The translations under genes and the position numbers were made by a program. From NCBI GenBank assembly GCA_947184155.2, contig CAMXCT020000465.1, forward strand, positions 124,001 to 188,000: a stretch of 64,000 nucleotides of DNA. Reading direction: 5' to 3'. Positions 4,501 through 38,118 of the stretch are shown here, in pieces. The stretch comes from Cladocopium goreaui. Lineage: Eukaryota > Sar > Dinophyceae > Suessiales > Symbiodiniaceae. Under the pieces are notes generated by a model that saw only the letters and a program-made list of their open reading frames with translations, had not been told where the DNA came from and did no database searches. Numbering within the stretch: position 1 is the first letter of the stretch; each line of letters opens with the position of its first letter.

Positions 4501-5020
4501 TGCCAGACTTCTTCAATGACAATGGCACGCCAGTCTGTGCTTCTGCAGTGGCATTCTCAACCTCCACGTTCTGCAGGGACATCAAGCTCACTGCGTTCCC
4601 ATCAAGTGCATTGCCAGATTGCGACTCCTCCGGCACTAGCATCTTCAAGCATTTGGAGCACTCCCAGCGAACACAAGCGAACTGACCTGCAGTGATTCGA
4701 CGGGTTTGAGTGCAGCGCTTGCCACAAGGACAAGAGGGAGCTGCACCACTAGGGATGCCAGACTTCTTCAATGACAATGGCACGCCAGTCTGTGTTTCTG
4801 CAGTAGCACTTTTAACCACCGCACCTTGAATGGCAGAATCTTGCTCAGTGGTGATTGTCTTCAAAACAGATCCACGGAGATGGCCTGCAGAAGTGGGGAC
4901 GGACTTTTCGTTCACATTTGTTGCGTCTTGTGCTCCGTGCATGGTTGTATCTTGCGGGAGATCGGCAAAGCACACACCCAGCAAAAGCAGCATGACGTTC
5001 TTGCGAAGAGCCATGGTCAT
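1588..5020 (-). CDS. Secreted cysteine-rich tandem-repeat protein, broken by two 1-base deletions
   Basis: Function unknown; probably secreted or surface-bound. The likely start is ATG at 5020 (or 5014). It opens with Met-Thr-Met-Ala-Leu-Arg-Lys followed by a hydrophobic stretch ending Cys-Phe-Ala, a good signal peptide, then about 70 unique residues. The rest is an array of 85-residue units, each with six cysteines spaced C-x-C-x3-C-x12-C-x4-C-x2-C around a CPCGKRC motif, plus a linker rich in Glu, Ala and Thr. It ends with ECSHC and a stop at 1588. The frame breaks twice: one base is missing near 3984-3990 and one near 3060-3063, exactly where the repeat period falls from 255 to 254. Reading frames therefore run 5020-3881, 3884-3060 and 3063-1588. 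The unit resembles no family I can name; the cysteines could form disulphides or bind metal. The breaks may be real or assembly errors in a near-identical array. Confidence 0.7.
1636..4830 (-). repeat. 255-bp coding minisatellite, 13 units
   Basis: The motif gattcgacgggtttg recurs at 1636, 1891, 2146, 2401, 2656, 2911, 3165, 3420, 3675, 3930, 4184, 4439 and 4694. All steps are 255 except two of 254 (2911 to 3165 and 3930 to 4184), which mark the frameshifts. Unit variants show a higher-order period of three units between about 3165 and 4693, with shared variants such as ctttgtttctgctgtgg in the first unit of each triplet. Confidence 0.95.
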
Positions 5021-9764: not shown

Positions 9765-11290
9765 CAAAGCTGCAAACACAGGTGAGGTCCGTTTCAATAA
9801 AGCACTGGACATACCTAAGAATCTATGTGATGCCTATACCGGTTAAACATTGCAACTTTCAAATTTAGCTAGGAATGAATGCGATGCTAGTATTAGCAGG
9901 TGTAAACAGGACCAAGTTCTGATGTTCATTTGGCATTGCACCACGAACATCTCCCACTAAGAGTTCGTGCATTGCGTCCTAAAAAGATGCGTGCCACGCG
10001 ATTGACCTTGATGCAGCTAGAATCCTTGTACCGGAATTGCGGCGACTTCGGTTGTGCTTGATCAATATGTTCGTGCGATTTGATTTGCCAATTTACTGTC
10101 CTTGTACACAAGCCTTGCTTGGTGCCCTCTGCATGGACCAGCCATAGCTGGAAAGAGAGAAATGGTCGGAATTAAGTTATCAACACGTGCCCGCAAGGAC
10201 GAATGCCCTGCCCGCATCCAGGTCGTCGTTACTGAAATCTGCTCTGATATTCTTTGAGAATTGCACTTCTGACTCTTGCGACTGAGAGTTGTACTATGGT
10301 TTCCTGACACAGCTTCAAGTGCCACGCAATTGACCTTGATGCAGCTAGAATCCTTGTACCGGAATTGCGGCGACTTCGGTTGTGCTTGATCAATATGTTC
10401 GTGCGATTTGATTTGCCAATTTACTGTCCTTGTACGCAAGCCCTGCTTGGTGCCCTCTGCATGGACCCGCCATAGCTGGAAAGAGAGAAATGGTCGGAAT
10501 TAAGTTATCAACACGTGCCCGCAAGGACGAATGCCCTGCCCGCATCCAGGTCGTCGTTACTGAAATCTGCTCTGATATTCTTTGAGAATTGCACTTCTGA
10601 CTCTTGCGACTGAGAGTTGTACTATGGTTTCCTGACACAGCTTCAAGTGCCACGCAATTGACCTTGATGCAGCTAGAATCCTTGTACCGGAATTGCGGCG
10701 ACTTCGGTTGTGCTTGATCAATATGTTCGTGTGATTTGATTTACCAATTTACTGTCCTTGTACACAAGCCCTGCTTGGTGCCCTCTGCATGGACCCGCCA
10801 TAGCTGGAAAGAGAGAAATGGTCGGAATTAAGTTATCAACACGTGCCCGCAAGGACGAATGCCCTGCCCGCATCCAGGTCGTCGTTACTGAAATCTGCTC
10901 TGATATTCTTTGAGAATTGCACTTCTGACTCTTGCGACTGAGAGTTGTCCTATGGTTTCCTGACACAGCTTCAAGTGCCACGCAATTGACCTTGATGCAG
11001 CTAGACTTTTGCACCGCAAATGCACCACCTCAGGCTCTAGTCTGGGAGAGACAAGTTGTCCAATTCAAAGGCAAGGCAAGGCAATGGCCCAACTGGCCTA
11101 GCTGTTAACATTGTTAACTTGTATGATTTTTCTGCCTGGACTCTGGCGCTTGGACATGCCAATGCGCTCAGTGAACTTTGTAGCATTGCTAAGCAAGGCA
11201 TTTTGAAATGTCGCCTGCACTGCTAGAACCAGCAACTCTGGCACGGGATTTGGTCCTTCAAAGTCGCCATTGCACTGAACCGCTGCTCTT
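9765..11290. repeat. Dispersed repeat R2, left copy, with 328-bp tandem array
   Basis: The segment is homologous to 20640-21430, same orientation. Within it a 328-bp unit is tandemly repeated: the motif gccacgc(a/g)attgacc falls at about 9992, 10321, 10649 and 10977. The right-hand copy has a single unit, so the extra units arose after dispersal. The ORFs of about 90-125 aa seen here are this repeat read in one frame and are not convincing proteins. Confidence 0.9.
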
Positions 11291-23881: not shown

Positions 23882-24120
23882 CCAATTTATGTTCTCGTGA
23901 ACGTGCATGTGATCACATGCCCTCACCACTCACCTGCAGCGGACTGTTTTCCCTCTTGAGAGACGTGGGTAGCAAGAGGGGATCCTATCGAAATCATAAC
24001 GATCTGTGAACTGACTGATCTGTCAGCATTAACTTCAGATCACAAAAGCAAAATGGAGCTGAGACTGGATCAGTCCCTGCCGAATCCCCTGAGAACAAAT
24101 GCTGAATCGATTTGACCCAC
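23882..24120 (-). repeat. Element 1 split repeat B2
   Basis: 239-bp direct repeat matching 24529-24767 with one difference (gttttccc here, gctttccc there). It forms the 3' terminus of the element on its sense (minus) strand. Confidence 0.92.
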
Positions 24121-24293
24121 TCATCGAACCCGTCTCGGTGAATCGCCAAGAGCAGTAGGCGCAAACGGAAGAAAATCTATCAATCCGACTTCATGCACTC
24201 GCCGAACTATCGTGAAAATCGTCGCGAGCAGAAGGCGCAGCTGAAAACAGGGTCGATGGACCCACCCCGGAAAAACCAGGGTGGGTGGGATGG

Positions 24294-24529
24294 GAGCTTT
24301 TCGCACTCAGGAAATAGATCTTGAGCCAAAATGGCAAGATCGAGAGATCTTCCATTTGGCATCCACTGCTGATCAAATAATAAATAAAAATTCAAATAAG
24401 AACATCCAATTGATCAAATCATGGTGAACACCATGCATGAAGTGATGCGATCGACAGAGCAGCTGATGGTGGCAGAGAACTGAAATTGACCCACATATCC
24501 CAACCAAACCAGACCGAAGATATGTGAAC
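24294..24529 (-). repeat. Element 1 split repeat A2
   Basis: 236 bp, apparently identical to 37883-38118. It abuts repeat B1 with a one-base overlap at 24529. It carries a copy of the spliced-leader relic at 24320-24335. Confidence 0.93.
24320..24335 (-). other. Spliced-leader relic, copy in A2
   Basis: The minus strand reads GCCATTTTGGCTCAAG, an exact match to the last 16 nt of the 22-nt dinoflagellate spliced leader; the six leader bases before it do not all match. This is the A2 copy of the relic. Confidence 0.75.
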
Positions 24530-24767
24530 CAATTTATGTTCTCGTGAACGTGCATGTGATCACATGCCCTCACCACTCACCTGCAGCGGACTGCTTTCCC
24601 TCTTGAGAGACGTGGGTAGCAAGAGGGGATCCTATCGAAATCATAACGATCTGTGAACTGACTGATCTGTCAGCATTAACTTCAGATCACAAAAGCAAAA
24701 TGGAGCTGAGACTGGATCAGTCCCTGCCGAATCCCCTGAGAACAAATGCTGAATCGATTTGACCCAC
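24529..24767 (-). repeat. Element 1 split repeat B1
   Basis: 239-bp repeat directly after the stop codon of the pol ORF (24773) and contiguous with A2. It matches 23882-24120. Confidence 0.92.
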
Positions 24768-24772
24768 GCTGC

Positions 24773-27733
24773 TCAGAGAGATGGAAAAATAGGATCTACA
24801 GTAATCCATCCTAGATTGGTTCCAACAGACATGTTATCGCGTGACGGTGGATCGGCCGGATTGGCGTCCGTCGGAACTCTATCAATGTACAGATTGATTT
24901 TTAATTCAAGAGCTAAATTCCAAAATACTCCTACTAATTCACAAAGATCTTCACGGGATGAATAACCTTTGACCAACGCGCCTTGAACAGGTTCGGAATC
25001 TACCAGCAGCAGTGACCATGAGCCTGCAATGCGAGTTTCAAAGGTCTTGAGAGCTACAACGGTCGCAAAGAGCTCGACCATGGCGATCTGTGATTTTCGT
25101 GGGAGCCACTTGTCCACGAGCTGCTGTTGAACTTCGCAACCAAACTGGATAGGAACTTCGCCCTTTGCAAAAAGCACGCCACCGATCCACGGCTTCGATG
25201 GCGACCCTGGCTTGCCGTCAGGAAAGCTTCCGTCAGTGAAGATAACAAAATCAGAAGACCTTGGCCTAGATACAGAGATGGGTCTAGGCGGTCCTTCTTC
25301 AATGAGCCATTTCCACTGTTTGAGAGCAAGCACGATCGCCTGGCTCAAATGAGATTGGTTCAGCTTCGTATATTGCCTTTCCGACAGAGCGCGCAGAAAA
25401 GCCCGACCTATCTTCCCCCATAGCTGAGAAGAGCCAAACATTAGCTTCCCTCTCAGTTTGCCAGCTTGACCAGGAGGAAAGACCTGCGATGACAAAATGG
25501 ACGAGATCTCATCTAAGAGCTCGATCTTCCTGGACTGTTTGATCTTGAGCTCCATACTGACCAAATCGTATGTCACCCCTAGGATCGTGGGGTCTTTGCA
25601 CAGCTGCAACTTCTTCTGATCGAACTGGGCTCCGAGCCACCAATGAACCTTCTGAGCAATATCGAAAGCAGAGGAGCACGTAGCGGCAGGTTCGAACCCG
25701 TATTTGTCGTCATAGAAATTAAAGGCAGCCACAAAGAAGACCCTACGAAGAATGTCTGTAATGGCAGCAGACCTACGGTTGTAGTTGTAAACTGCAGAGA
25801 CCAAACCAAAAGAGTGACCTAACATTACGAAAAAGGCGATCTTGCCCTCCTTCGGCTCCCTCATGGTGATCACGCTCCACCTCCTCTGATCAGGCTTCAC
25901 CGCGATCTGGCGATAAGCTTTCCGCTCATCGAGCACCCATCCTAGGACTTCAGCCCTTTCCGGGAGGTGAGATCGCAACCATCGCAGAGCCGCTACGTTG
26001 ACATCGGTTGAAGGGAGCTCGAGCTTCTCCGTGATGGTAGTGGCAACATTCACGCCATTGACCGTAGCGCTATCCACTCCCCTGACCTTATTCTTCTGGA
26101 CGACCTCAAAACGTTGTGTAGGGATCCACTCTTTGGTGCCAAGGAACTTGGAAACATCTTGTTCAGAGAAAAAGGGGCCGAGCGTAGACCCTTCCTTCAC
26201 ATCCTCCATTGTTGCATCCCAGACCTTGGCAGTGTGCTCAGTGATCTCACAGCGCATCACATTCTTGATGACCTTTTGCGAGAATTCCCAGGCCCGCGAG
26301 CGCAACTCGCCCATTGAAAGAGGTTCGTCAGGAGCTTGTAGAAGGCCCCATCTTCCAGACCGCTGAATGGGGCCTACAATAGAAAAACCATGCAGCAAAT
26401 CAAACAAAAGAGCTCGATCCACGCAAGATGCGGCCGTAGTGAGCTCCTCCCACAATGCCACATGAGTGCAGGAGCCCAACTGCAGTGGTTGATCGTCTGG
26501 CTGCCCACGGAGCAGTCGACGAAGAAAAGGATCTTGAACTTGTTGCAAAACGGCATCAGTTGTCGGGAGGAGCGCGTAGGCCCTCTGCTCCCAACGCTGC
26601 ACCGCCCCCGCTCGGTGGCCCAGGACGAACTGTGGCTGGCGAACGACCATAGCCAGAGCTTCTTGCAGATCCGGGTCAAGCGCCGGATCCAAGGTGAAGG
26701 GGTGAGCAACTGAAAGAGCTGCTGCCACTGCTTGACCCGGCTCCATTTCCACATTCAACAGCGGTGGGAGAGCTGACCGCTTGAGCTGGTAGCCAGCGGC
26801 TGTGGCCTTTTCGGCCGATGCCCTCTGCTTGTGTGACTTCCATGGAGCTGGTTGGCCGACCGGCCTCTTGCGACCTGAGGCAGGCGTGACCAGCTCAAAA
26901 GTGGCAGCCAGGGGATCGTGAGATCGCACTGCTGCGACCACAGCGGCCCAGGCATCACAGAGCTCCGCGGGGTAGACCTGTGCCAACTTTGTACGGAAAA
27001 CCTTCTGGCCGTTGATGGTGACCATGCCCACCAACGGTTCATGTTCATGAGGCCGAGCGACCATATCGCATGATCTTGCGAGCTCGTGCAGATCCATTGC
27101 TGCCATGATCGATGTCGGCTTTTTGTGCACGGAGCCAAACCGGCACATGTCCAACGTGATCTTCTGCACGGTGGGCAGCTGAGCAAGGTCCAAAATTGGT
27201 GGCATGACCCAAATAAAAGAAGAGGCAGGGTTTTCCACCGACCACAGGACGCCGAGCTTGTGGCACAGCGTAGCCATCTGCTGTGTGAAGAACATGAACT
27301 CTGTTCCCATGGTGACTTTCCGTTGATCTTGAGGGCGGAGCCCAGGCAGCCCCCACAGGTGGTGTCGATCCCGCAGTGGCGGTGGGCCGCCATCGTTCTT
27401 ACGAGCAATGCTGAAGCTTGAACATGGCGTGCCAAAATGAATGTAGAAAATAACTTTGGCTTCGATCAACAGTCGAAGGTGTGCTTGAACTGCCGGGTCG
27501 AGCACGTCGACTGATTGCTGAACAAAATCGCCCGCTTCGATCTCTATGGGCGGCAAAATGGGTATGCCACGAGCGCTGATTGCTTGTGAGAGCCCCGCTT
27601 TGCCGGCAAAAATTTCCAGGAAAAATGAGCCCGAAGGGATTTGCATAGAGCCCCAAAAGCTTGCTTGGGAAACTGTCGGAGCCGGCAGCTCATCATTCGT
27701 TTCCCCCTGATCTTCCAGGGCCGAGCTGGCCAC
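24773..27733 (-). CDS. Methyltransferase-like / reverse transcriptase / RNase H polyprotein (element 1 pol)
   Basis: Copies element RNA into DNA. The N-terminal part (residues about 38-265) resembles a cytosine-5 DNA methyltransferase: an EIFAGKAGLS motif I (40-49), GTPCSSFS with the Pro-Cys of motif IV (101-108) and VENP in place of motif VI (166-169). The RT follows (about 530-780), with motif A VLDERKAYRQI (600-610), motif B HSFGL (640-644) and the catalytic FYDD (673-676). RNase H (829-965) has TDGS, VELFA, VDSE and NPADPPSR, giving the D-E-D-D set. The frame is that of gag; only TGA and two codons separate them, and the first codon here is GTG. The first ATG lies about 30 codons in, so expression probably needs readthrough, or the TGA is a mutation. 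All catalytic residues look intact. Confidence 0.88.
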   Translation of the reverse strand: MASSALEDQGETNDELPAPTVSQASFWGSMQIPSGSFFLEIFAGKAGLSQAISARGIPILPPIEIEAGDFVQQSVDVLDPAVQAHLRLLIEAKVIFYIHFGTPCSSFSIARKNDGGPPPLRDRHHLWGLPGLRPQDQRKVTMGTEFMFFTQQMATLCHKLGVLWSVENPASSFIWVMPPILDLAQLPTVQKITLDMCRFGSVHKKPTSIMAAMDLHELARSCDMVARPHEHEPLVGMVTINGQKVFRTKLAQVYPAELCDAWAAVVAAVRSHDPLAATFELVTPASGRKRPVGQPAPWKSHKQRASAEKATAAGYQLKRSALPPLLNVEMEPGQAVAAALSVAHPFTLDPALDPDLQEALAMVVRQPQFVLGHRAGAVQRWEQRAYALLPTTDAVLQQVQDPFLRRLLRGQPDDQPLQLGSCTHVALWEELTTAASCVDRALLFDLLHGFSIVGPIQRSGRWGLLQAPDEPLSMGELRSRAWEFSQKVIKNVMRCEITEHTAKVWDATMEDVKEGSTLGPFFSEQDVSKFLGTKEWIPTQRFEVVQKNKVRGVDSATVNGVNVATTITEKLELPSTDVNVAALRWLRSHLPERAEVLGWVLDERKAYRQIAVKPDQRRWSVITMREPKEGKIAFFVMLGHSFGLVSAVYNYNRRSAAITDILRRVFFVAAFNFYDDKYGFEPAATCSSAFDIAQKVHWWLGAQFDQKKLQLCKDPTILGVTYDLVSMELKIKQSRKIELLDEISSILSSQVFPPGQAGKLRGKLMFGSSQLWGKIGRAFLRALSERQYTKLNQSHLSQAIVLALKQWKWLIEEGPPRPISVSRPRSSDFVIFTDGSFPDGKPGSPSKPWIGGVLFAKGEVPIQFGCEVQQQLVDKWLPRKSQIAMVELFATVVALKTFETRIAGSWSLLLVDSEPVQGALVKGYSSREDLCELVGVFWNLALELKINLYIDRVPTDANPADPPSRDNMSVGTNLGWITVDPIFPSL

Positions 27734-27739
27734 ATCTTT

Positions 27740-29023
27740 TCAGTGGTTGCCCACCATCGGGTGGGACGCACCACAAACCATGCACATGTGCTTGAACCGG
27801 CACTTGTCGGCCAGAGCGCAGCCCATGGAAGAATTGAAATAGTGGCAGCGCTTCTGTCCGGAGACCGAACTGGCCGCCTGGGAGATGAGCTTCCACTCGG
27901 AGTCAGGGATCCTCTTGTCCTTGTCCGGCTTGGCCCCCTTATCCTGCTTCTTGTTGAAGGCCTCTTTCAGAACTGGTTTGACCTCCGAGGTGGAGGTGGC
28001 TTTGGCGACCTCCTTGTTGTGGCGCTTCTTGCGCCGTCGGCTAGAGGGAGCCGCTGTTTTGACCGGGCTCTCCAGCACCCGGTCTTGCTCATCTTTGGTG
28101 ACGGTCCGAGCACGGTCCACCTTGGCGAGAACTGCCTTGGTGCGAGCGTCATTCCACAGGTATTTGTGGTTGTTGAGCACCTCGGCCAAAGCGGCCTCGA
28201 ACGTGGTGTAGGTCTCCCGCTGCTCTGACTGGAGGCGGTGGACCTTTTTGCGGATCAACGCATCGGCCGCCACAAGATATGGCAGGCCGGGGCAGTCCGC
28301 CTTGAACTGTTCCAGCTCCTGCAGGTACTTGAGCGGACCCGCTGCCCTGGAGTACGTGCAGATATTCAGGTACTCCATAGCCATAAAGAGAGCATGGACG
28401 CGGTGGAGCAGCGTCTGCACATCCGTCACTTGATCTGGTTCATCTGCTTTTGAGACCGTGAGGAGATCTTCAGCATTCTTGGTGAGCCCGGTCTTCTGAA
28501 CGATGCTGTCAGCCCTCGTCCGGATCTCAGAGACCTCGTAGTAGGGAACCATGCCATGCACCAAAAAGTCACGGCTGACCTTCTCTACGAACTTCTTGTG
28601 AGGCTCCTTGGCATCCAGGAGGATCACATCAGGGTGAGCGGTGACAAAACGAGCTCTGAACTCAGCATGATCCTCTTGGGCCATTTCCGGGACCTTGTTG
28701 GGGTCTTCTTCCATGCGAGCCCGCCTAGTGGCGAACTGCCCTTGGAGCGCATGGCACGAGTGCCACACTGCTGCGAGCTGCATCAAGGCGAGCTCTTGTT
28801 CGGCTGCATTGGCACCGAGCGCTGTTGTGGGAATCACTGTCCGGAGCGCGTTCTTCACAGCTGCCGCCGCGTCGCCGAGCATGGCAAAAACTTCCACGGA
28901 TAAGAGCCCACTGTCTGCAGCTGCCCGACACAATTCAGTGCGCAGGCTGAGGCGGCCGAAAATTTGCCGCAGAGCAATCTTTGGAGTGTGAGCCTCATCC
29001 GCATACACGGTCCGATCGACCAT
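27740..29023 (-). CDS. Gag-like nucleocapsid protein with CCCH zinc finger (element 1)
   Basis: Likely structural protein that binds and packages element RNA. It is 427 aa from the ATG at 29023. The middle is helical and charged; residues about 325-390 are Lys/Arg-rich. At the C-terminus C393-x8-C402-x5-C408-x3-H412 is a CCCH zinc finger, followed by C414-x2-C417-x3-H421, the start of a second zinc knuckle. The ORF then ends at TGA (27742-27740) and the same frame continues as pol. A cysteine at the TGA position would give the knuckle a fourth ligand, so the stop may be a TGC/TGT-to-TGA change or a readthrough stop. The YR ORF lies 225 bp upstream in the same frame. Family assignment rests on the zinc finger and position; the N-terminal two thirds show nothing I recognise. 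Confidence 0.75.
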   Translation of the reverse strand: MVDRTVYADEAHTPKIALRQIFGRLSLRTELCRAAADSGLLSVEVFAMLGDAAAAVKNALRTVIPTTALGANAAEQELALMQLAAVWHSCHALQGQFATRRARMEEDPNKVPEMAQEDHAEFRARFVTAHPDVILLDAKEPHKKFVEKVSRDFLVHGMVPYYEVSEIRTRADSIVQKTGLTKNAEDLLTVSKADEPDQVTDVQTLLHRVHALFMAMEYLNICTYSRAAGPLKYLQELEQFKADCPGLPYLVAADALIRKKVHRLQSEQRETYTTFEAALAEVLNNHKYLWNDARTKAVLAKVDRARTVTKDEQDRVLESPVKTAAPSSRRRKKRHNKEVAKATSTSEVKPVLKEAFNKKQDKGAKPDKDKRIPDSEWKLISQAASSVSGQKRCHYFNSSMGCALADKCRFKHMCMVCGASHPMVGNH

Positions 29024-29248
29024 GTTGCCACTGTGCTGAAACTACTGGATTGAGCCGCAGATCTGGGCAACTTGAAGTAAAAACCACTCTGACTGATCTA
29101 ATGCTGATGTGGCAGGATCACTCTGCGCCAAACTGGAAAAATGTATATCTGTCAAATATAAAAAAAAAATCAAAATTAAATCAATTGAGGGGGAGGAAAA
29201 TAAAAGGGAGAGAGGAGACGTGAACTCGTGCAAACACTGAGCCAACTT

Positions 29249-31075
29249 TTACGGCGATAGGCATAGTAAACGATCAAATGCCCGCCTTGTTCTTTTGCAC
29301 AGCTGGCAGATCATGCCAGGGGCTTGAGTACCGACCGAAGCTGCATCCTGCAGCTTCAGTCGACCACAGACCGATGTGTCTTCGTGGACCCTACGGTCAA
29401 AAATGTGGCATCTAAGATCCGACGAACTCAAAGCACTAGCTGGCAAAGAACTTTTTACAATGAACTCAGGCACGATCGGTTCTGTCACCTCTTCGTCTTC
29501 TTCCTCCACAACGAACTGGGTCTGATCCGGCACCCATGATTGCCTGAGCTTCTCTGTCATGTTCTTGACCATGGCGACCGACAGCTCCTTGCGCTGGCGA
29601 GCGTACTTCAAAACCAACTGGCTGGGATCTTTCCAGTTGGCCTGTAGGCCCACAATCTTGTCGTCCACCTGAGCCTTCACCGCCTCAGAGAGCATTGTCA
29701 CACGCATTGAGTGCCAGGTGACCTCCCTGACCGCCTTCTCGAGTTCATCCATCTCATTGACCTCCACCAACTTGAGAATGCGAGCTTCGTTGATTCCCCT
29801 CAGCATAAATGCCTTGAGCCACGGGAGGCCGCGAGAATAGGTCACCGGAGCTTCGTTGAACTCCTTCTCGGACTTGAGCTCCCATACAAAATAGTCTCGA
29901 TCCGAGATGTGCGGCTTGAACAAGTCCCATCCCATTGCGAGCCATTCTACTCCAGAGATGGAACAGGTCGGCACAGCAAATCTAGTGCCCCTCCTCTTCC
30001 TTTCGACCTTTGTTTGCCAAACCACTCCAAGAAGAGCTTCTGGGGTCATCTCGAGAGAGGAGGGCGCCACGTGCACCCCATCGTCAAATCTCAGCGACGC
30101 GTAGATCAAAATCAAAACCCACCAGACTGTGATCGCCGCTGCATTCTTCTTCTCGAAGATGAGCTTGGGCAGCATGACCTCCAGCGCTATCACGAGCTTC
30201 GGTGGTAGCGGAATGGCCTCCTTGAGCTCTTTGCCACGTTCTGCATGAACTGTGTCAATCAGAGCCTTAAGGCGAGCGTCGCCCATTTCTGGGCAAGACA
30301 TGGCCAACCGCTTGCAGATCCAGCCCACGGCGTATTTGAAAGATGGCAGTACTGCTGGGCCACACCCCTGATCGCGGAGGTGCTGTGAATACGACATCAC
30401 GGCCACGATCGTTGGGGGGTAAACACGGAGGCCTCTTCCGGCCGACCACTCCTCAAACTTTTCCCAGTTTCTGACATTTTGTCTGATCGTCCTGAAGCCC
30501 CCAGCCTCGAACGCCAGCGCCCGGAGCCGAGCGGCTTCAGCGGGGGCGAGGCCGATGCACTGAGCGGGGTCGTTGATCCCTGCTGCACTGCCGGCCCTGT
30601 CACAGATCTGTGACAAACGCCTGCCCCACTTCTTCTTCTCTGTGTTCTCGGCGTCCTGGATCGAGGACACTTGAGCCGCTGATCCATGGCCTGCTGGCAA
30701 CACGCCTACAGAGCCCGGGGGCTGCACAGCCACGATCACCTGGCTTGCCGCCCTCTTGAATCCGACTCTGAGTGGCTCGGCTGATCCGTATCCAAGATCC
30801 GAAGCGATCTCCGCTTGGACCCTGCTGGACGAGCGCGCCACCATGTCGGCCAAAAGGTTGACCATCTCCAATCTGACAAGGATCTTGTCCAAGATCTCTT
30901 GGTCATCAGTAAGAGCTGGCAAAAACGAAGAAAACTTCTCATCAGCCGATTCGAAATCATCATCCGACATGGCTAGCCAGAACTCTACATGATCCATCTT
31001 CAGATCTCTCAAAACAGACCTAAACTGATCATCAAAAATTGGGAGACCTAAAAACCTAGAAATGGAACGGTCCAT
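29249..31075 (-). CDS. Tyrosine recombinase / integrase (element 1)
   Basis: Predicted to integrate the circular cDNA of the element. It is 608 aa from ATG 31075. The N-terminal 190 residues are variable, then a SAM-like core-binding region (about 190-285) leads into the catalytic domain. Catalytic residues can be read: Arg329 in YASLRF, probably Lys356 or a neighbour in TKVERKRR, His455-x2-Arg458 in TWHSMR, Trp481 in ANWKD, and Tyr491 in LKYARQRK as nucleophile. The C-terminus (about 555-600) has a small Cys/His cluster ending PGMICQLCKR, possibly zinc-binding. It lies upstream of gag, whereas in DIRS- and Ngaro-type elements the YR is usually last. It is intact, with no stop or frameshift. 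Confidence 0.87.
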   Translation of the reverse strand: MDRSISRFLGLPIFDDQFRSVLRDLKMDHVEFWLAMSDDDFESADEKFSSFLPALTDDQEILDKILVRLEMVNLLADMVARSSSRVQAEIASDLGYGSAEPLRVGFKRAASQVIVAVQPPGSVGVLPAGHGSAAQVSSIQDAENTEKKKWGRRLSQICDRAGSAAGINDPAQCIGLAPAEAARLRALAFEAGGFRTIRQNVRNWEKFEEWSAGRGLRVYPPTIVAVMSYSQHLRDQGCGPAVLPSFKYAVGWICKRLAMSCPEMGDARLKALIDTVHAERGKELKEAIPLPPKLVIALEVMLPKLIFEKKNAAAITVWWVLILIYASLRFDDGVHVAPSSLEMTPEALLGVVWQTKVERKRRGTRFAVPTCSISGVEWLAMGWDLFKPHISDRDYFVWELKSEKEFNEAPVTYSRGLPWLKAFMLRGINEARILKLVEVNEMDELEKAVREVTWHSMRVTMLSEAVKAQVDDKIVGLQANWKDPSQLVLKYARQRKELSVAMVKNMTEKLRQSWVPDQTQFVVEEEDEEVTEPIVPEFIVKSSLPASALSSSDLRCHIFDRRVHEDTSVCGRLKLQDAASVGTQAPGMICQLCKRTRRAFDRLLCLSP

Positions 31076-31933
31076 GACGCTCGAGCTAGCACGCTTGATC
31101 CCTAAGCGCTGAGGGCCTGGAGCGAACTGAAATCAGGACCCATGCACCGCTGGCTGAGGATCTCGCCTGCAGTGCGTTCCGATAGCTGGATCTAGCTATC
31201 ATCCACCCCGATCGGGTTGGACTGGATCAAATGAAAGGATCTGTAGAATAAAAGGACAGATCGTCCTACTCTGAAAACCCTGCCAGGACGGTGGGGATCT
31301 CACCATCCTGGGTAACCCAAAAATTAGGTGGGATCTACCTAACATGGGTTACAGGGGAACGGACTAATTAACATCATCGAGGATAACCCGGGAACAAACC
31401 TACAACCCTACAGGTTAGGATCCTAACCTATGTAAGGAAGGCTTACCCAGACCTATCAACCAGTAGCCTCATCGTGGATCGCCCGATGGGGGGAGGGGGG
31501 AACCACCAAGACCGGGATGGATCTACCCGACCGGTTGGTCGCCCCGGGACTAGATCTTCCCAACCCCCAGCTGATCAGCTGCACATGACTGCGAACGCAT
31601 CCGTTCAAGAAAAAGATCAAAGAGCTAAGTCACGGCTGAGCAGCAGGACCTGAACATGGAGAAAATAAATCACTGTTTTTCATCACAAATAAAGTCGATG
31701 AGCTACTATATTAACTAGACGACGGTTGGCCCGAGAGCGAAAAAGATGTGTTTCAAGCAGCTCTGAGTATGGTAGTCGTAAAAAATAGTCGGTGATAGGT
31801 TGGTGAATTTTATATGAGCTATGGAGGGGTAAGTTGTGAAAAGATTGATTAAGAAGAGGATACATGTGACAACCCATGCATATGCACTGTGCTGCTTGGT
31901 AAAGGGCATCATATGACACGTGTCTTGCAACCA
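31076..31933. other. Element 1 internal non-coding segment
   Basis: Upstream of the YR ORF. No ORF worth calling. 31290-31570 has short G- and C-rich runs and repeated ggatct/acctac-like words. It may hold the promoter or leader for YR and Gag, but no signal can be identified. Confidence 0.4.
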
Positions 31934-31955
31934 CAGAGAGACATAGATAGAGAGA

Positions 31956-32008
<53 letters not shown>

Positions 32009-32052
32009 GGAGAGAGAGAGAGAGAGAGAAAGAGGGAGAGAGAGAGAGAGAG
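31934..32052. repeat. (GA)n microsatellite
   Basis: About 120 bp of almost pure GA with occasional GATA or GGGA interruptions, inside element 1. Confidence 0.95.
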
Positions 32053-32194
32053 CAGGGTCTTCTGTTGTTAGTATTGAGACACTATATTGCAAGACAATAT
32101 ATTAAAGATGTATTTTAGGCAGGCGAGACAAGTAGTATCAAGACAATATATTACAAGTACAAAACACTGGTTTGCATCCTATCCTTCGTATTGT

Positions 32195-34618
32195 TTTTCA
32201 CACGCAGACGCTTTTGCACACAGACGCTTTTACACACAGACGCATTTACACACAGACGCTTTACACACAGAAGCGTTTACACACAGACGCTTTTCCACAC
32301 AGAAGCTTTTACACACAGAAGGTTTTACACGCAGACACTAGACACTTTTACACACATAGGCTTTTACACACAGACGCCTTTACACACAGACACTAGACAC
32401 TTTTACACGCATAGGCTTTTACACACAGACGCTTTTACACGCAGATGTTTTTAGACACACACACTTTCACACACAGAAGCTGTTACACACAGAACTTTCA
32501 CACACAGACGAAGCTGTTACACACAGAAGCTTTTACACACAGACTCCTTTACACACAGACGCTTTTACACACAAACACTTTCACAGACGCGTTTACACAC
32601 AGAGACTTTTACACACAGACGCTTTTACACACAGAAACTTTTACACGCAGACGCTTTTATACACAGGCGCTTTTACAGGCAGATGCTTTTACACACAAAC
32701 ACTTTCACAGACGCGTTTACACACAGAGACTTTTACACACAGACGCTTTTACACACAGACACTTTTACACGCAGACGCTTTTACACACAGGCGCTTTTAC
32801 ACGCAAGTGCTTTTACGCACAGAAGCTTTTACACACAGACACTTTTACACACAAACGCTTTTACACACAGACCCTTTTACACACAGACCCTTTTACACAC
32901 AGACGCTTTTACACACAACAGTTTCACACACAGAGGCTTTTACACACAGAAGCTTTTACACACAGACGCTTTTATACACAGACGCTTTTACACACAGAGG
33001 CTTTTACACACAGAAGCTTTTACACACAGGCGCTTTTACACACAGACGCTTTTACACACAGACGCTTTTACACACAGACGCTTTTACACACAGAGACTTT
33101 TACACACACAGACGCTTTTACACACAGAAGCTTTTACACACAGACGCTTTTACACACAAACACTTTTACACACAGACGCTTTTACACACAGACGCTTTTA
33201 CACACAGACGCTTTTACACACAGACTCCTTTACACACAGAGTCCTTTACACACAGACGCTTTTACACACAGAAGCTTTTTACACACAGACGCTTTTACAC
33301 ACAGACGCTTTTACAAACAGACACTTTTACACACACCTTTTACACACAGACGCTTTTACACACAGACTCCTTTACACACAGACGCTTTTACACACAGACG
33401 CTTTTACACACAGACGCTTTTACACACAGACGCTTTTACACCCAACACTTTCACACACAGAGGCTTTTACACACAGAAGCTTTTACACACAGAGGCTTTT
33501 ACACACAGAAGCTTTTACACACAGGCGCTTTTACACACAGAAGCTTTTACACACAGAGACTTTTACACACAGACACTTTTACACACAAACGCTTTTACAC
33601 ACAGACGCTTTTACACACAGAAGATTTTACACACAGACTCCTTTACACACAGACGCTTTTACACACAGACGCTTTTACACACAGAAGCTTTTACACACAG
33701 ACGCTTTTACACACAGACGCTTTTACACACAGACGCTGTTACACACAGACGCTTTGACGCACAGAGGCTTTGACGCACAGAGGCTTTTACACACAGAAGC
33801 TTTTACACACAGACGCTTTTACACACAGACGCTTTTACACACAGTGACAGACACTTTTACACACAACACTTTCACACACAGAGGCTTTTACACACAGAAG
33901 CTTTTACACACAGAGGCTTTTACACACAGAAGCTTTTACACACAGGCGGTTTTACACACAGACGCTTTTACACACAGACGCTTTTACACACAGACGCTTT
34001 TACACACAGACGCTTTTACACACAGACGCTTTTACACACAAACGCTTTTTACACATAGGCTCTTTTACACACAGACGCTTTTACACACAGACGCTTTTAC
34101 ACACAGAGCCTTTTACACACAGACGCTTTTACACACAGACGCTTTTACACACAGACGCTTTTACACACAGAGACTTTTACACACAGAGGCTTTTACCCGC
34201 AGACAATTTTACACACAAACACTTTTACACACAGAGACTTTTACACACAGACGCTTTTACACACAGACGCTTTTACACACAGAAGCTTTACACACAGAAG
34301 CTTGTACACACAAACACTTTTTACATACAAACACTTTTACACACAGAAGCTTTTACACACAGTTGCTTTTACACACAGACGCTTTTACACACAGATGTTT
34401 TTACACACAAACGCTTTTACACACAGACGCTTTTACACACAGACGCTTTTACACACAGACGCTTTTACACGCAGAAGCTTTTACACACAAACACTTTTAC
34501 ACACAGACGCTTTACACACAGACGCTTTTACACACAGACGCTTTTACATTCAGACGCTTTTACACACAGACGCTTTTACACACAGAGGCTTTTACACACA
34601 GACACTTTTACACAGACG
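32195..34618. repeat. 16-bp minisatellite, about 150 copies
   Basis: Unit acacacagacgctttt on the plus strand, with many single-base variants. The period of 16 is not a multiple of 3 and the unit has no stop in any plus-strand frame, so all three frames stay open for hundreds of codons (up to 661) and give the same 16-residue repeat. Those ORFs run antisense to the element and I treat them as artefacts of the array. Confidence 0.95.
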
Positions 34619-35350
34619 AAAGCGTTGCGATTGACACTTTAAAATTGCAATTTTTCCTCAGTTTTTGACGTCCAACGTCCATTTCGTGCGAAAGGGTTGC
34701 GATTGACAACTCAAAGTCGCAATTTTTCTTCAGTTTTTGACGTCCAACGTCCATTTCGTGCGTAAGGGTTGCGATTGACAACTCAAAGTCGCAATTTTTC
34801 CTCAGTTTTTGACGTCCAACGTCCATTTCGTGCGAAAGGGTTACGATTGACCAAGTAAAATCGCAATTTTTCCTCAGTTTTTGACGTCCAACCTCCATTT
34901 CGTGTGTAAGGGTTGCGATTGACACCTCAAAGTCGCAATTTTTCCTCAGTTTTTGACGTCCAACGTCCATTTCGTGCGAAAGGGTTGCGCTGGACACCTC
35001 AAAGTCGCAATTTTTCCTCAGTTTTTGACGTCCAACGTCCATTTCGTGCGAAAGGGTTGCGCGGGACGCTTCAAAGTCGCATTTTTTCCTCAGTTTTTGA
35101 CGTCTAACGTCCATTTCGTGCGAAAGGGTTGCGCGGGACGCTTCAAAGTCGCATTTTTTCCTCAGTTTTTGACGTCCAACGTCCATTTCGTGCGAAAGGG
35201 TTGCGCGCGACCAATAAAAGTTGCAATTTTTCCTCAGTTTTTGGCGTCCAACGTCCATTTCGTGCGAAGGGGTTGCCGGCGACGCTTCAAAATCGCAATT
35301 TTACCTAGGTTTTGGACGTCCAACGTCCATTTCGTGCGAAAGGGTTGCGT
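34619..35350. repeat. 72-bp satellite, about 10 copies
   Basis: The block gacgtccaacgtccatttcg recurs at 34667 and then every 72 bp to about 35315. On the minus (element sense) strand it reads as a 24-residue repeat, including GRQKLRK and ATLSHEMDV, open from an ATG at 35258 to 34608; the other strand is also largely open. Whether it is translated cannot be told from sequence. Confidence 0.93.
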
Positions 35351-35410
35351 TTCGTGGCGCTCCGGCGGCACCGCCCCCGCCTTAAGAGAGAATAGAAGAA
35401 GAGCGAGAGG

Positions 35411-36012
35411 AGATCTGCAGATGTGAAGGTGTGAAGATGTAGATCTGCAGATGTGAGGGTGTGAAGATGTAGATCTGCAGATGTGAGGGTGTGAAGATGT
35501 AGATCTGCAGGTGTGAGGGTGTGAAGATGTAGATCAGCAGGTGTGAAGGTGTGAAGATGTAGATCAGCAGGTGTGAAGGTGTGAAGATGTAGATCTGCAG
35601 ATGTGAGGGTGTGAAGATGTAGATCTGCAGCTGTGAGGGTGTGAAGATGTAGATCTGCAGGTGTGAGGGTGTGAAGATGTAGATCTGCAGGTGTGAAGGT
35701 GTGAAGATGTAGATCTGCAGATGTGAGGGTGTGAAGATCTAAATCTGCAGGTGTGAGGATGTGAAGATCTAGATCTGCAGGTGTGAAGGTGTGAAGATGT
35801 AGATCAGCAGATGTGAAGGTGTGAAGATGTAGATCGGCAGATGTGAGAGTGTGAAGATCTAGATCTGCAGGTGTGAAGGTGTGAAGATCTAGATCTGCAG
35901 ATGTGAGGGTGTGAAGATCTAGATCAGCAGATGTGAAGGTGTGAAGATGTAGATCGGCAGATGTGAGAGTGTGAAGATCTAGATCTGCAGGTGTGAAGGT
36001 GTGAAGATCTAG
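35411..36012. repeat. 30-bp satellite, about 20 copies
   Basis: Unit agatctgcag followed by a 20-bp gtgtgaaggt/gtgaagatgt half. Read on the minus strand it gives a 10-residue LHTLTSAD-type repeat. It directly follows the 72-bp array and lies between that array and the 550-aa ORF. Confidence 0.95.
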
Positions 36013-36179
36013 TATAACGGCTGCTTTTTTACGAAGAACCCTTCGCAGGCGCTCTCGGGAAAAACCGCTGCAAGTCAAATTGACCGCAGATAAAAACCGG
36101 ACCTACGACATGATCTGCCCAAGGCCAAGAGCTCTTCAATCAGGGATCACCCCTTTAGAGCTCACCGATCGGCACAGAG

Positions 36180-37832
36180 CTATGCATCGTATGTAGTGGG
36201 TCCGAACGACACCGGCCCCGTCGAGCCGCCTGCAGGGCCCCAAAGTGGTGCCTGCGACTGCGACGATCGTGCCTGCGCCGCTTGCTGTGGCTCAGAGCTT
36301 TCATCCACCTCTTCGATCTTGGCCGTCGATGTGTTGTAGGAACGGCGCATCATCTCCTCAGCAAAGATCATGGGTGTGAGCCCTGCAGTTGACCGCGCAA
36401 ATCTGCGATCCATGCGAGCCCTGTCACGTTCATCGTCGACCATGTGCCCTGCTTCACCCCGATTGGAGTGGCGGACGTTGAACGAGCGTTCATCCAGCTC
36501 GATCCCCGCCTGCCTGCTTGCTGCAACCAATTCACCAGCATGAGCAGTTGGTTGATCGTCTTCTGCAACTTCTGCGCGGAGCCAAGCCTCCGACGTCAAT
36601 GCCGGAGGGCCAACCGGAGCTGGGGCTGAGCTCGTGTGGCGCATCTCTGCCAGAGCTTTCTGTGCCACGATCTCCGGCGCTCTCTCAAAGAGCTTGGACT
36701 TTGCCTGAACATGGAAATTTCCAGGCTCCAAACATTCCACAAAAGCGAGCTTCACCCCCACATCGTCTTCTGATTCACAAACAGAGCTCTTCCACCAGCC
36801 TTCGTGAACGGCAGCAAGTTGAGCGAACTGCTCTGTCTGTTCAGGTCCCTCGACCCTGGCTTTGTTTTCACGAACTGACTTGATCGTTTGGATCAAGGTC
36901 GGACCAGAGATGTGGGAGACTGTGAGCCAAGTCCCTGGCACTGATGTGCGAGAGCACTTGAGATCAATGCGGTTGTTGGCATCTCTGAACCTCATCTCGA
37001 TGCGATCTGCGTCATTGCCCACAGCGTCATCTGAAGCGCGAGAGCAGACGCGCATCTCAAACCTCGAGCGGGCAGAGTCGCCAGCCACAACTGAGCCTTT
37101 GGGGCCGATCGAGTATGTTCGACCGCCACACTCAAAACTCAGCACTGAGACCCGCCAGCCAAGGAACACGGCCACGACCACAGAGAGCCTCGGCTGACCT
37201 TTGCTAGCTTCGCGAACGAAATACTCATCCACGAACTGTTGCTGCACCGTGAGGTCAGTGTCTGAATGGAAACCTCTGAAGATCCAGTGGAAGAGAATCT
37301 CATTGCCATTATAGATCTTCAGGTCCACATAGGATGCCGACGTGTCACGGAGCATCGGCCAGCTGAATGGCTGAAAAGCGGGGTGGGCCAGAGCCTGAGC
37401 AGTCTCTGCGTCCCACCCTGCACAGGTGTTGCCAGTGTTTGACTCGATCGAGATGGCGATGACCACCTTGATTCCGTCAAGGGTGTAGTTCCCAAAGAGC
37501 GCGAGGTGAAAGCCGGAGTTCGGCGGCATGACCTGGTCCCGTTCTGTCAGGACGTTGATCGAGCTCGCCGCATTTGCCATGATCTCCGAGACCAACCAGG
37601 TCTGAAAAGGAGAAACCATACGATCGTCTCGGTTGTCAATGACGATCATTGACTGATCCTCTGGCTCCGGCCCCTCCGCGATCGGTTCCATGAACCGTGG
37701 CATCTGCACAACATAAGGGTTGTGTGCCATGTTGGGGCCCGATCGTTGCCCACTCCATTGACCTCCTCCGCCTCCACCGCCACGGCCTTGAGCTCCGTAT
37801 CCAACATTCCAAGAACCAGAGCGGCGTGACAT
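36180..37832 (-). CDS. Unknown 550-aa protein encoded at the 5' end of element 1
   Basis: First ORF of element 1, starting at ATG 37832 (Met-Ser-Arg-Arg-Ser-Gly); the frame is open a little further up, to a GTG inside repeat A1. The N-terminal 40 residues are Gly/Arg-rich with a run of glycines, like RNA-binding tails. Residues about 60-330 look like a folded alpha/beta domain with hydrophobic strands, and the C-terminal 130 are polar, Gln/Ser/Ala-rich and probably disordered. I recognise no family and see no zinc finger, protease or polymerase motif. It lies just downstream of the spliced-leader relic on the sense strand. It could be an extra capsid-like or RNA-binding protein, or a captured host gene. 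Confidence 0.6.
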   Translation of the reverse strand: MSRRSGSWNVGYGAQGRGGGGGGGQWSGQRSGPNMAHNPYVVQMPRFMEPIAEGPEPEDQSMIVIDNRDDRMVSPFQTWLVSEIMANAASSINVLTERDQVMPPNSGFHLALFGNYTLDGIKVVIAISIESNTGNTCAGWDAETAQALAHPAFQPFSWPMLRDTSASYVDLKIYNGNEILFHWIFRGFHSDTDLTVQQQFVDEYFVREASKGQPRLSVVVAVFLGWRVSVLSFECGGRTYSIGPKGSVVAGDSARSRFEMRVCSRASDDAVGNDADRIEMRFRDANNRIDLKCSRTSVPGTWLTVSHISGPTLIQTIKSVRENKARVEGPEQTEQFAQLAAVHEGWWKSSVCESEDDVGVKLAFVECLEPGNFHVQAKSKLFERAPEIVAQKALAEMRHTSSAPAPVGPPALTSEAWLRAEVAEDDQPTAHAGELVAASRQAGIELDERSFNVRHSNRGEAGHMVDDERDRARMDRRFARSTAGLTPMIFAEEMMRRSYNTSTAKIEEVDESSEPQQAAQARSSQSQAPLWGPAGGSTGPVSFGPTTYDA

Positions 37833-37882
37833 GGCTAGAACGAGAGGAGGAATGAAATGAGCGAAGGGTACACCCAGGCCCT

Positions 37883-38118
37883 GAGCTTTTCGCACTCAGG
37901 AAATAGATCTTGAGCCAAAATGGCAAGATCGAGAGATCTTCCATTTGGCATCCACTGCTGATCAAATAATAAATAAAAATTCAAATAAGAACATCCAATT
38001 GATCAAATCATGGTGAACACCATGCATGAAGTGATGCGATCGACAGAGCAGCTGATGGTGGCAGAGAACTGAAATTGACCCACATATCCCAACCAAACCA
38101 GACCGAAGATATGTGAAC
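37883..38118 (-). repeat. Element 1 split repeat A1 (5' terminus)
   Basis: 236 bp, apparently identical to 24294-24529, and on the minus strand the 5' end of the element. The right flank begins atagatctcac, a different sequence from that next to A2. A short tandem repeat of a ccccgtgaatgtgcc-type motif lies in the flank at about 38140-38190. Confidence 0.93.
37909..37924 (-). other. Spliced-leader relic in A1, upstream of the 550-aa ORF
   Basis: GCCATTTTGGCTCAAG on the minus strand, in sense orientation and 77 nt upstream of the ATG at 37832. It equals the 3' 16 nt of the dinoflagellate spliced leader. Such relics are known in retroposed dinoflagellate genes; here the relic is inside the element's own terminal repeat. 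Confidence 0.78.

Follow-up and report, generated by a model that had tools for sequence, protein, structure and literature searches.

A tyrosine recombinase (YR) retroelement in the genome of the dinoflagellate Cladocopium goreaui raises the question of why its repeat A carries a piece of the host's spliced leader (DinoSL), and how an element of this kind could be copied. The element lies at 23882..38118 of the window, by which we mean the whole stretch of 64,000 nucleotides that was analysed, and further copies were searched for in the window's own genome (1.17 Gb).

Structure of the element and its family

The original prediction described a YR retroelement with split direct repeats, and its coordinates proved correct. 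The two copies of repeat A (24294-24529 and 37883-38118) are identical at 236/236 positions and those of repeat B (23882-24120 and 24529-24767) at 238/239, which indicates that the copy is recent, as had been proposed. The predicted minus-strand order of A1, ORFs, B1, A2 and B2 was also borne out, with a linker of 173 nt between A2 and B2. The repeats and their associated features are as follows.

37883..38118, minus strand: A1, the 5' terminal copy of repeat A, 236 nt, identical to A2; its start agrees with that of other elements
38081..38115, minus strand: terminal inverted repeat CACATATC...GATATGTG within A, a candidate recombinase binding site
37873..37881, minus strand: GGGCCTGGG, an invariant 9-mer bordering A1 on its 3' side, a putative primer-binding site by its position
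24529..24767, minus strand: B1, the internal copy of repeat B, adjoining A2
24294..24529, minus strand: A2, the internal copy of repeat A, with a leader match at 24320-24335
24121..24293, minus strand: linker between A2 and B2, beginning with a C-rich / GGGGTGGG hairpin (24261-24285)
23882..24120, minus strand: B2, the copy of repeat B at the 3' terminus; it contains the palindrome GCATGTGATCACATGC at 23905-23920

As anticipated, other copies share the same ends: when compared via repeat A, which is 236-356 nt long in them, 12 elements have the same termini. The A1...B1-A2-B2 arrangement, with B1 adjoining A2, was found in 13/13 elements (the B2 end of C3024 being masked), and GGGCCTGGG lies at most 1 nt from the end of A1 in 12/12. 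The terminal inverted repeat of A is kept in nine subfamily representatives, and its CACTTATC/GATAAGTG and CACTTATT/AATAAGTG variants retain pairing.

A unit of 14 kb did not hold, because the copies on contigs C3024 and C140 (98-99% identical) have the layout of the window element at ~9.9 kb each. The unit is A1-ORFX-YR-Gag-(TGA)-MTase/RT/RNaseH-B1-A2-linker-B2, ~9.9 kb, while the window copy measures 14,237 bp and owes its 14-kb length and its satellites to a 4,345-bp insert (31715-36059) missing from both of these copies. The satellite arrays that had been noted are thus present, but they are not part of the element.

31715..36059, no strand assigned: satellite-rich insert of 4,345 bp with CCCGAGAGCG inverted ends, outside the element unit; C3024 and C140 lack it at the corresponding position
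31935-32052: GA repeat
32196-34614: 16-bp satellite array
34617-35349: 72-bp satellite array
35411-36012: 30-bp satellite array

The dinoflagellate family of YR retrotransposons to which the window element belongs is multi-copy, and the element is one of its recent copies.

Coding capacity

The four ORFs that had been described are all open in the window copy, and all four are under purifying selection.

36180..37832, minus strand: ORFX, the first ORF, 550 aa from its ATG; dN/dS 0.04-0.26 where computable
29249..31075, minus strand: YR ORF, 608 aa, with six catalytic-type residues
27740..29023, minus strand: Gag-like ORF of 427 aa, whose C terminus resembles a Cys/His zinc knuckle and whose TGA stop is in the Pol frame
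24773..27733, minus strand: Pol ORF (MTase/RT/RH), 986 aa, with an N-terminal C5-methyltransferase-like domain followed by reverse transcriptase (RT) and RNase H

Residues R329, K356, H455, R458, W481 and Y491 of the YR are invariant among 31 aligned relatives, and we take these R-K-H-R-H/W-Y residues to be the catalytic set. Gag and Pol lie in one frame across a conserved TGA, and reverse transcriptase and RNase H are both present in Pol. The predicted methyltransferase-like domain is supported in the Pol N terminus by FAG, TPC and ENP motifs; this domain of the window copy was unmatched in Pfam, and that of 1/40 relatives passed PF00145 (24.7 bits; cut-off 22). The YR of the window copy was likewise unmatched in Pfam (E <= 1), and none of the four window ORFs gave an integrase match in a search that left RT and YR equally unmatched. 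YR retrotransposons, the DIRS order, are characterised by such a recombinase, by RT and RNase H, and by the lack of a DDE integrase.

ORFX, which matched no known fold or family, had been regarded as cargo. Instead, it is a fixed first gene, located upstream of the YR at 63/69 YR loci and downstream at 0/69. Nor is the gene order peculiar to this copy, as had been suspected, since ORFX-YR-Gag-MTase/RT/RH is the norm among the copies examined.

A conserved spliced-leader match in repeat A

Near its 3' end, each copy of A in the window reproduces the 3' end of DinoSL exactly (sequence as printed in the accessible text of PMC12014239), with T before this match and AT after it.

37909..37924, minus strand: exact 16-nt match to the DinoSL 3' end, in A1
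24320-24335, minus strand: exact 16-nt match to the DinoSL 3' end, in A2

The 16-mer is exact in 13/13 A2 copies and 12/13 A1 copies, and it ends 24-34 nt from the end of A in 12 elements. The broken copy C2181 has one mismatch within the leader core. Across nine subfamily representatives, between which dS is at least 1.1 and often saturated, a 19-mer around the match is invariant, whereas A otherwise has a median identity of 60%; invariant columns make up 16/16 of the leader versus 48/113 of the other gap-free columns of A. In the 1.17-Gb genome, this 19-mer, a search pattern that itself fixes the T before the match, occurs 58 times and its reversed control 0 times, so the match is not due to chance. 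Most occurrences (51/58) sit on contigs with element hits, and 21/25 same-strand pairs are at one-element spacing. Genome-wide, the leader 19-mer is nearly confined to this element family. Among 28 clade-1 YR contigs, C4868 and C489 are without the leader site; in C4235 and C3656, also of clade 1, it is present. Of the spliced-leader relic that had been proposed, therefore, the leader sequence stands, exact over 16 nt, but the word relic does not, since few blocks of A are invariant, the leader is among them, and it is nearly family-confined.

In most lineages the match lies within a hairpin loop, the inverted flanks reaching p <= 0.005 in 8/11 sequences (1000 shuffles; sister elements do not provide independent arms). 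The hairpin of the window lineage has just 7 bp (p = 0.085), and C825 and C5661 showed no hairpin around the match in this test of 11 sequences. The sequence of the inverted flanks varies between lineages.

A distant clade, with a YR identity of 33-37%, has the leader site, ending in AG, in 9/9 assessable elements. There, the first 10 nt of the match (GCCATTTTGG) are exact in 9/9, and GCC upstream of the T run and GG downstream of it persist in 9/9; the last 6 nt (CTCAAG) drift. Because all 16 nt are retained in only 1/9 of these elements, the exact leader match is dispensable for the family as a whole.

A possible role of the leader in reverse transcription

The retention of the leader in the end repeats suggests that the element is copied via leader-tagged RNA. 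LTR retrotransposons have an R repeat at both RNA ends and a primer-binding site directly after the 5' repeat. The window family resembles them in having a repeat at both RNA ends and a conserved 9-mer right after the 5' repeat; it would differ in that R starts with a trans-spliced host leader and the YR integrates, and GGGCCTGGG is a candidate primer site. From the sequence we infer, at somewhat short of an even chance, that the element RNA is trans-spliced at the leader match in A and that the match serves reverse transcription as R does in LTR elements. The complete reading, to which we assign a probability of about one in three, is that this YR family borrows the host leader as R in each cycle: the RNA would be DinoSL-capped, the leader match in A2 would allow the cDNA to transfer and regain the part lost to trans-splicing, and B-A would correspond to an LTR.

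Under this reading, the host leader would be joined to the transcript at the AG ending the 16-nt match, and the resulting RNA would carry the leader and the last ~24-34 nt of A but lack at least ~190 nt from the start of A1. Once RT reached the 5' leader, the cDNA end would pair with the leader sequence in A2 near the RNA 3' end; after this transfer, the lost part of A and then B1 would be copied, as the R region allows in LTR elements. The transfer would restore A1 and leave B joined to A, a junction from which circles could form and the YR could integrate; B-A would act like an LTR with the leader as its R. With T in place of A before the match, the internal AG used for re-splicing in retrogene relics would be gone, and we propose that the acceptor stays at the match end for this reason; a pyrimidine-rich AG immediately before the ORFX ATG is a possible rival acceptor. 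If synthesis stopped ~6 nt before the cap, the stretch of leader paired with the 3' end of the cDNA would be the one that is kept best; without such an early stop the cDNA end would bear 6 unpaired nt. The simple transfer model leaves homogenisation of the last 24-34 nt of A unaccounted for.

Alternative explanations

A serious though unlikely contender is that the leader is kept solely for transcription or for processing of the 5' end, acting as a TTTT box or as a trans-splice acceptor (TTTT...AG), with no role in reverse transcription. It would fit the distant clade, where the AG is kept in all nine elements as the last 6 nt drift, and the accessible text of PMC12014239 proposes that the TTTT box of DinoSL promotes transcription. 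However, acceptor and box signals are loose, yet 19 nt are invariant in the nine subfamily representatives, the GCC and GG around the T run also persist in the distant elements, and besides A1 the copy in the 3' part, A2, has retained the site. Renewal of the leader from trans-spliced RNA in every cycle, which would maintain identity without selection on the sequence, follows the same route by which retrogene relics arise (PMC12014239, accessible text). It would account for a perfect host-leader match stopping exactly at the leader 3' boundary, but we consider it improbable: a full leader should add its first 6 nt, whereas the 58 19-mers have T, not A (as the pattern requires), the distant clade is imperfect in 8/9, and there is no evident route for renewing A2.

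In hepadnaviruses, plus-strand DNA is primed by a capped RNA primer. That plus-strand synthesis similarly starts from a capped leader fragment surviving RNase H, annealed to the complement of the leader site, appears very unlikely here; the match does end exactly at the leader 3' end, as a primer requires, with the unmatched 6 nt at the 5' end, but in the distant clade the drift affects CTCAAG, the 3' tail most needed by a primer. We give least credence to an ordinary spliced-leader relic, in which capture of an ancestral element via a trans-spliced mRNA left a neutral remnant. Such relics are common in dinoflagellate retrogenes (accessible texts of PMC12014239 and PMC11453091), but the leader is invariant here despite saturated synonymous divergence, its place in A is fixed, and the inverted flanks differ in sequence between lineages.

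Comparison with known systems

According to the accessible part of de Mendoza et al. 2018 (PMC5890265), SymbioDIRS-Dnmt3 elements of Symbiodinium are likewise Symbiodiniaceae YR retrotransposons with A-coding-B-A-B repeats, and as in the window family their YR has an ORF of its own; the paper describes two ORF orders. Their Pol ORF includes a methyltransferase of C5 type (Dnmt3), where that of the window family has a C5-methyltransferase-like domain. This domain has no Pfam match in the window copy, with the one PF00145 pass among 40 relatives, and that part of the paper makes no mention of ORFX, the TGA junction or a spliced-leader sequence, the comparison being by description. The window family has the YR, RT/RH, Gag-like ORF and A1...B1-A2-B2 arrangement in common with PAT, Ngaro and VIPER elements (PMC4157794 and PMC6681497, accessible parts). 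Compared by layout and gene content, it differs from them in having the YR ahead of Gag and RT, a methyltransferase-like domain ahead of RT, an extra first ORF (ORFX) and the leader in A.

Retrogenes of dinoflagellates have DinoSL relics (DinoRL), in which a 3' part of DinoSL likewise sits in the genome; the accessible text of PMC12014239 ascribes them to reverse transcription of trans-spliced RNA. The match in the window family differs in spanning 16 nt, in having T rather than A before it, in occurring in both A1 and A2 and in being invariant across subfamilies; the last two properties are unlike those of a neutral remnant lying upstream of a retrogene.

Significance

A retrotransposon that depends on the 5' end of its RNA for copying should not survive trans-splicing, which removes that end. 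With intact recent copies, one clade with an exact leader and one with a drifting leader, this family is a clear test set. If the proposed reading is true, a leader locked in an internal repeat would show how an element tolerates and exploits trans-splicing, which would bear on the purpose of the internal B1-A2 repeat in split-repeat elements as well as on why dinoflagellate genomes contain so many leader-tagged retrocopies.

Unit length and organization of the element family

The YR (tyrosine recombinase) retroelement in the window, which lies on contig C465, was compared with other copies in its own 1.17-Gb genome assembly (G000). The positions originally predicted for the A and B repeats, four ORFs, satellites and spliced-leader match were all confirmed; the main features are as follows.

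23882-38118, minus strand: whole element, in the order A1-ORFs-B1-A2-linker-B2
37883-38118, minus strand: repeat A1
31715-36059: satellite-rich block
27733-27742, minus strand: TGA between Gag and Pol
24529-24767, minus strand: repeat B1
24294-24529, minus strand: repeat A2
23882-24120, minus strand: repeat B2

A1 and A2 are identical (236/236), and B1 and B2 differ at a single site in 239. Repeat A has at least 22 matches in the genome, and the named relatives of the element's proteins belong to Symbiodinium, Cladocopium, Durusdinium and Effrenium, which makes the host a dinoflagellate near these genera. Two copies, on contigs C3024 and C140, show 98-99% identity to the window element over its length and are uninterrupted where it carries the satellite block. 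Because these copies are continuous there, the 4,345-bp block is an insert and the unit measures about 9.9 kb, so the 14-kb size first proposed was not borne out. CCCGAGAGCG opens the insert, and the inverse CGCTCTCGGG is found towards the opposite end, at a distance of 15 nt from the junction; given these inverted ends, the insert may be mobile in its own right, perhaps as a satellite-carrying unit. Its 16-bp satellite also adjoins the C2181 element. Diverged members (C968, C5649, C2236 and C619) keep the order, with 68-81% DNA identity over long blocks; C619 and C2348 carry partial or rearranged copies. The window also contains two tandem arrays, 98% alike, at 1598-4808 (255 bp, 12.6 copies) and 9991-11005 (328 bp, 3.1 copies).

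The A1 ... B1-A2-linker-B2 pattern, with B1 abutting A2, was present in all 13 elements examined (in C3024 the B2 end is masked and A1 is short of 17 nt, the leader site among them). Among 12 elements with mapped termini, TAT immediately precedes A1 in nine and TGT in two; the surroundings of most are AT-rich, often (AT)n DNA, the exception being the 3' side of the window copy. The first 45 nt of A form a conserved block that includes the inverted repeat CACWTATC/GATAWGTG, whose arms change together, and B has an invariant GCGTGGGT at its start and ACCCACGT plus a palindrome near its end. GGGCCTGGG lies directly 3' of A1, at most 1 nt away, in 12/12 elements; it is also found upstream of ORFX, the 550-aa first ORF, in 5/5 elements of a distant clade (YR 33-37% identical; 14 elements sampled, 9 assessable for the leader site). 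GTGGGTCAA is shared by the two repeats, standing where B begins and about 36 nt inside A (window 24129-24767 and the A repeats), from which a common origin of the inner parts of A and B is possible.

Conservation of the encoded proteins

With 72 of 856 YR candidates scored, ORFX precedes YR on that gene's own strand at 63 of the 69 listed YR loci and follows it at none. The catalytic-type residues of YR (R329, K356, H455, R458, W481 and Y491) are invariant among 31 aligned relatives at 32-87% identity. In Pol, the RT and RNase H carboxylates are unchanged in all 40 relatives, and the predicted structure (mean pLDDT 87.9) resembles retroviral RT. The N-terminal part of Pol contains the C5 methyltransferase motifs FAG, TPC and ENP; Cys104 is present in at least 90% of the 40 relatives and Glu167 in 40/40. 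The Pfam C5-methylase cut-off was passed by one of the 40 relatives, with no match for the window copy; the domain is a candidate methyltransferase. YR elements with a methyltransferase are already known in Symbiodiniaceae, since De Mendoza et al. 2018 (PMC5890265) describe SymbioDIRS-Dnmt3, whose repeat layout is shared by the window family.

Gag and Pol share one frame, and in 7/7 elements a TGA (GNH-stop) interrupts it at a matching position. After the TGA, the Pol match continues in the same frame in six of the seven; in C5649 this frame runs on into Pol before a frame change. The window Pol has no ATG at the junction. A single frame across a conserved TGA suggests that the stop codon is crossed by readthrough.

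Where computable, dN/dS against six other copies was 0.00-0.34 overall, the between-subfamily values being rough because synonymous sites are at or near saturation.

dN/dS of the window element against six other copies
ORFX: 0.04-0.26
YR: 0.06-0.19
Gag: 0.00-0.06
Pol: 0.06-0.34
MTase part of Pol: 0.10-0.21

An invariant spliced-leader match in repeat A

The dinoflagellate spliced leader (DinoSL) is DCCGTAGCCATTTTGGCTCAAG (PMC12014239). Its last 16 nt were found exactly in 13/13 A2 and 12/13 A1 copies. In 12 elements the match stops 24-34 nt before A does, independent of A length (236-356). In a nine-subfamily alignment, all 16 leader columns are invariant, together with one base before and two after (a 19-mer, T + match + AT); among the other gap-free columns of A, 48/113 are invariant, and pairwise identity outside the leader block is 52-84% (median 60%) between the nine representatives. 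The 19-mer occurs 58 times in the genome and its reversed-pattern control 0 times. Of these occurrences, 48 are on contigs that also have a close match to YR or ORFX, and three are on contigs with an A-repeat match only; reciprocally, 26 of 28 close-clade YR contigs carry the 19-mer. Of the 25 same-strand pairs, 20 have a spacing of 8.9-9.7 kb and four have other spacings; the members of the window pair are 13.6 kb apart. These results establish the identity of the leader match, its place, its conservation and its near-confinement to the family. The broken C2181 copy has a single mismatch in the leader core.

The remaining seven 19-mers lie on contigs C55, C184, C257 and C6142, which have no YR, ORFX or A-repeat match; two on C257 are separated by 311 bp. 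C2181 has a further exact match to the leader 16-mer, on the minus strand near L027:5273, which stands in another context between short inverted arms CTGTC/GACAG. A viral contig with 22% GC (IMGVR_UViG_3300045993_001077; L048:2746-2908) carries DinoSL twice in full, with a 267-aa open frame immediately following the second copy, and looks like a dinoflagellate trans-spliced cDNA taken up by a virus.

The flanks of the leader match form inverted repeats whose sequence differs by lineage. In 8/11 sequences, no more than 5 of 1000 shuffles scored as high; the score was unremarkable in C825, in C5661 and in the window lineage, where 85 of 1000 did so. Because arms are common to sister elements, the eight correspond by eye to about five independent cases. 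Six RNA folds gave z of -2.1 to -8.2; the leader's own GCCA-UUU-UGGC is at the tip in four, and another fold wins in two (window lineage and C5937).

A possible role of the leader match in replication

We propose that the element RNA would be trans-spliced at the AG closing the leader match. The cDNA would then end at its 3' side in the leader complement and could pair with the leader in A2, after which the lost part of A would be copied, continuing into B1; the joined B-A would finally be integrated by YR. Having T rather than A ahead of the match would abolish the internal acceptor, the one at which retrogene relics are re-spliced (PMC12014239). Literature searches covering few subscription papers found no publication tying DIRS elements to the dinoflagellate spliced leader, or on the spliced leader as the R region of an LTR retrotransposon, and we claim novelty within that literature.

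The strongest rival reading is that the match is purely a splice or promoter signal. Between two ways in which the leader could serve replication, the distant clade is informative: GCCATTTTGG is kept, with AG at the site end, in 9/9 assessable elements, the full 16 nt persists in one, and in the other eight the last part is altered by substitutions or insertions. This clade retains the part of the leader that would pair with the growing cDNA end while the rest drifts, a pattern more in keeping with minus-strand transfer than with plus-strand synthesis primed by the leader.
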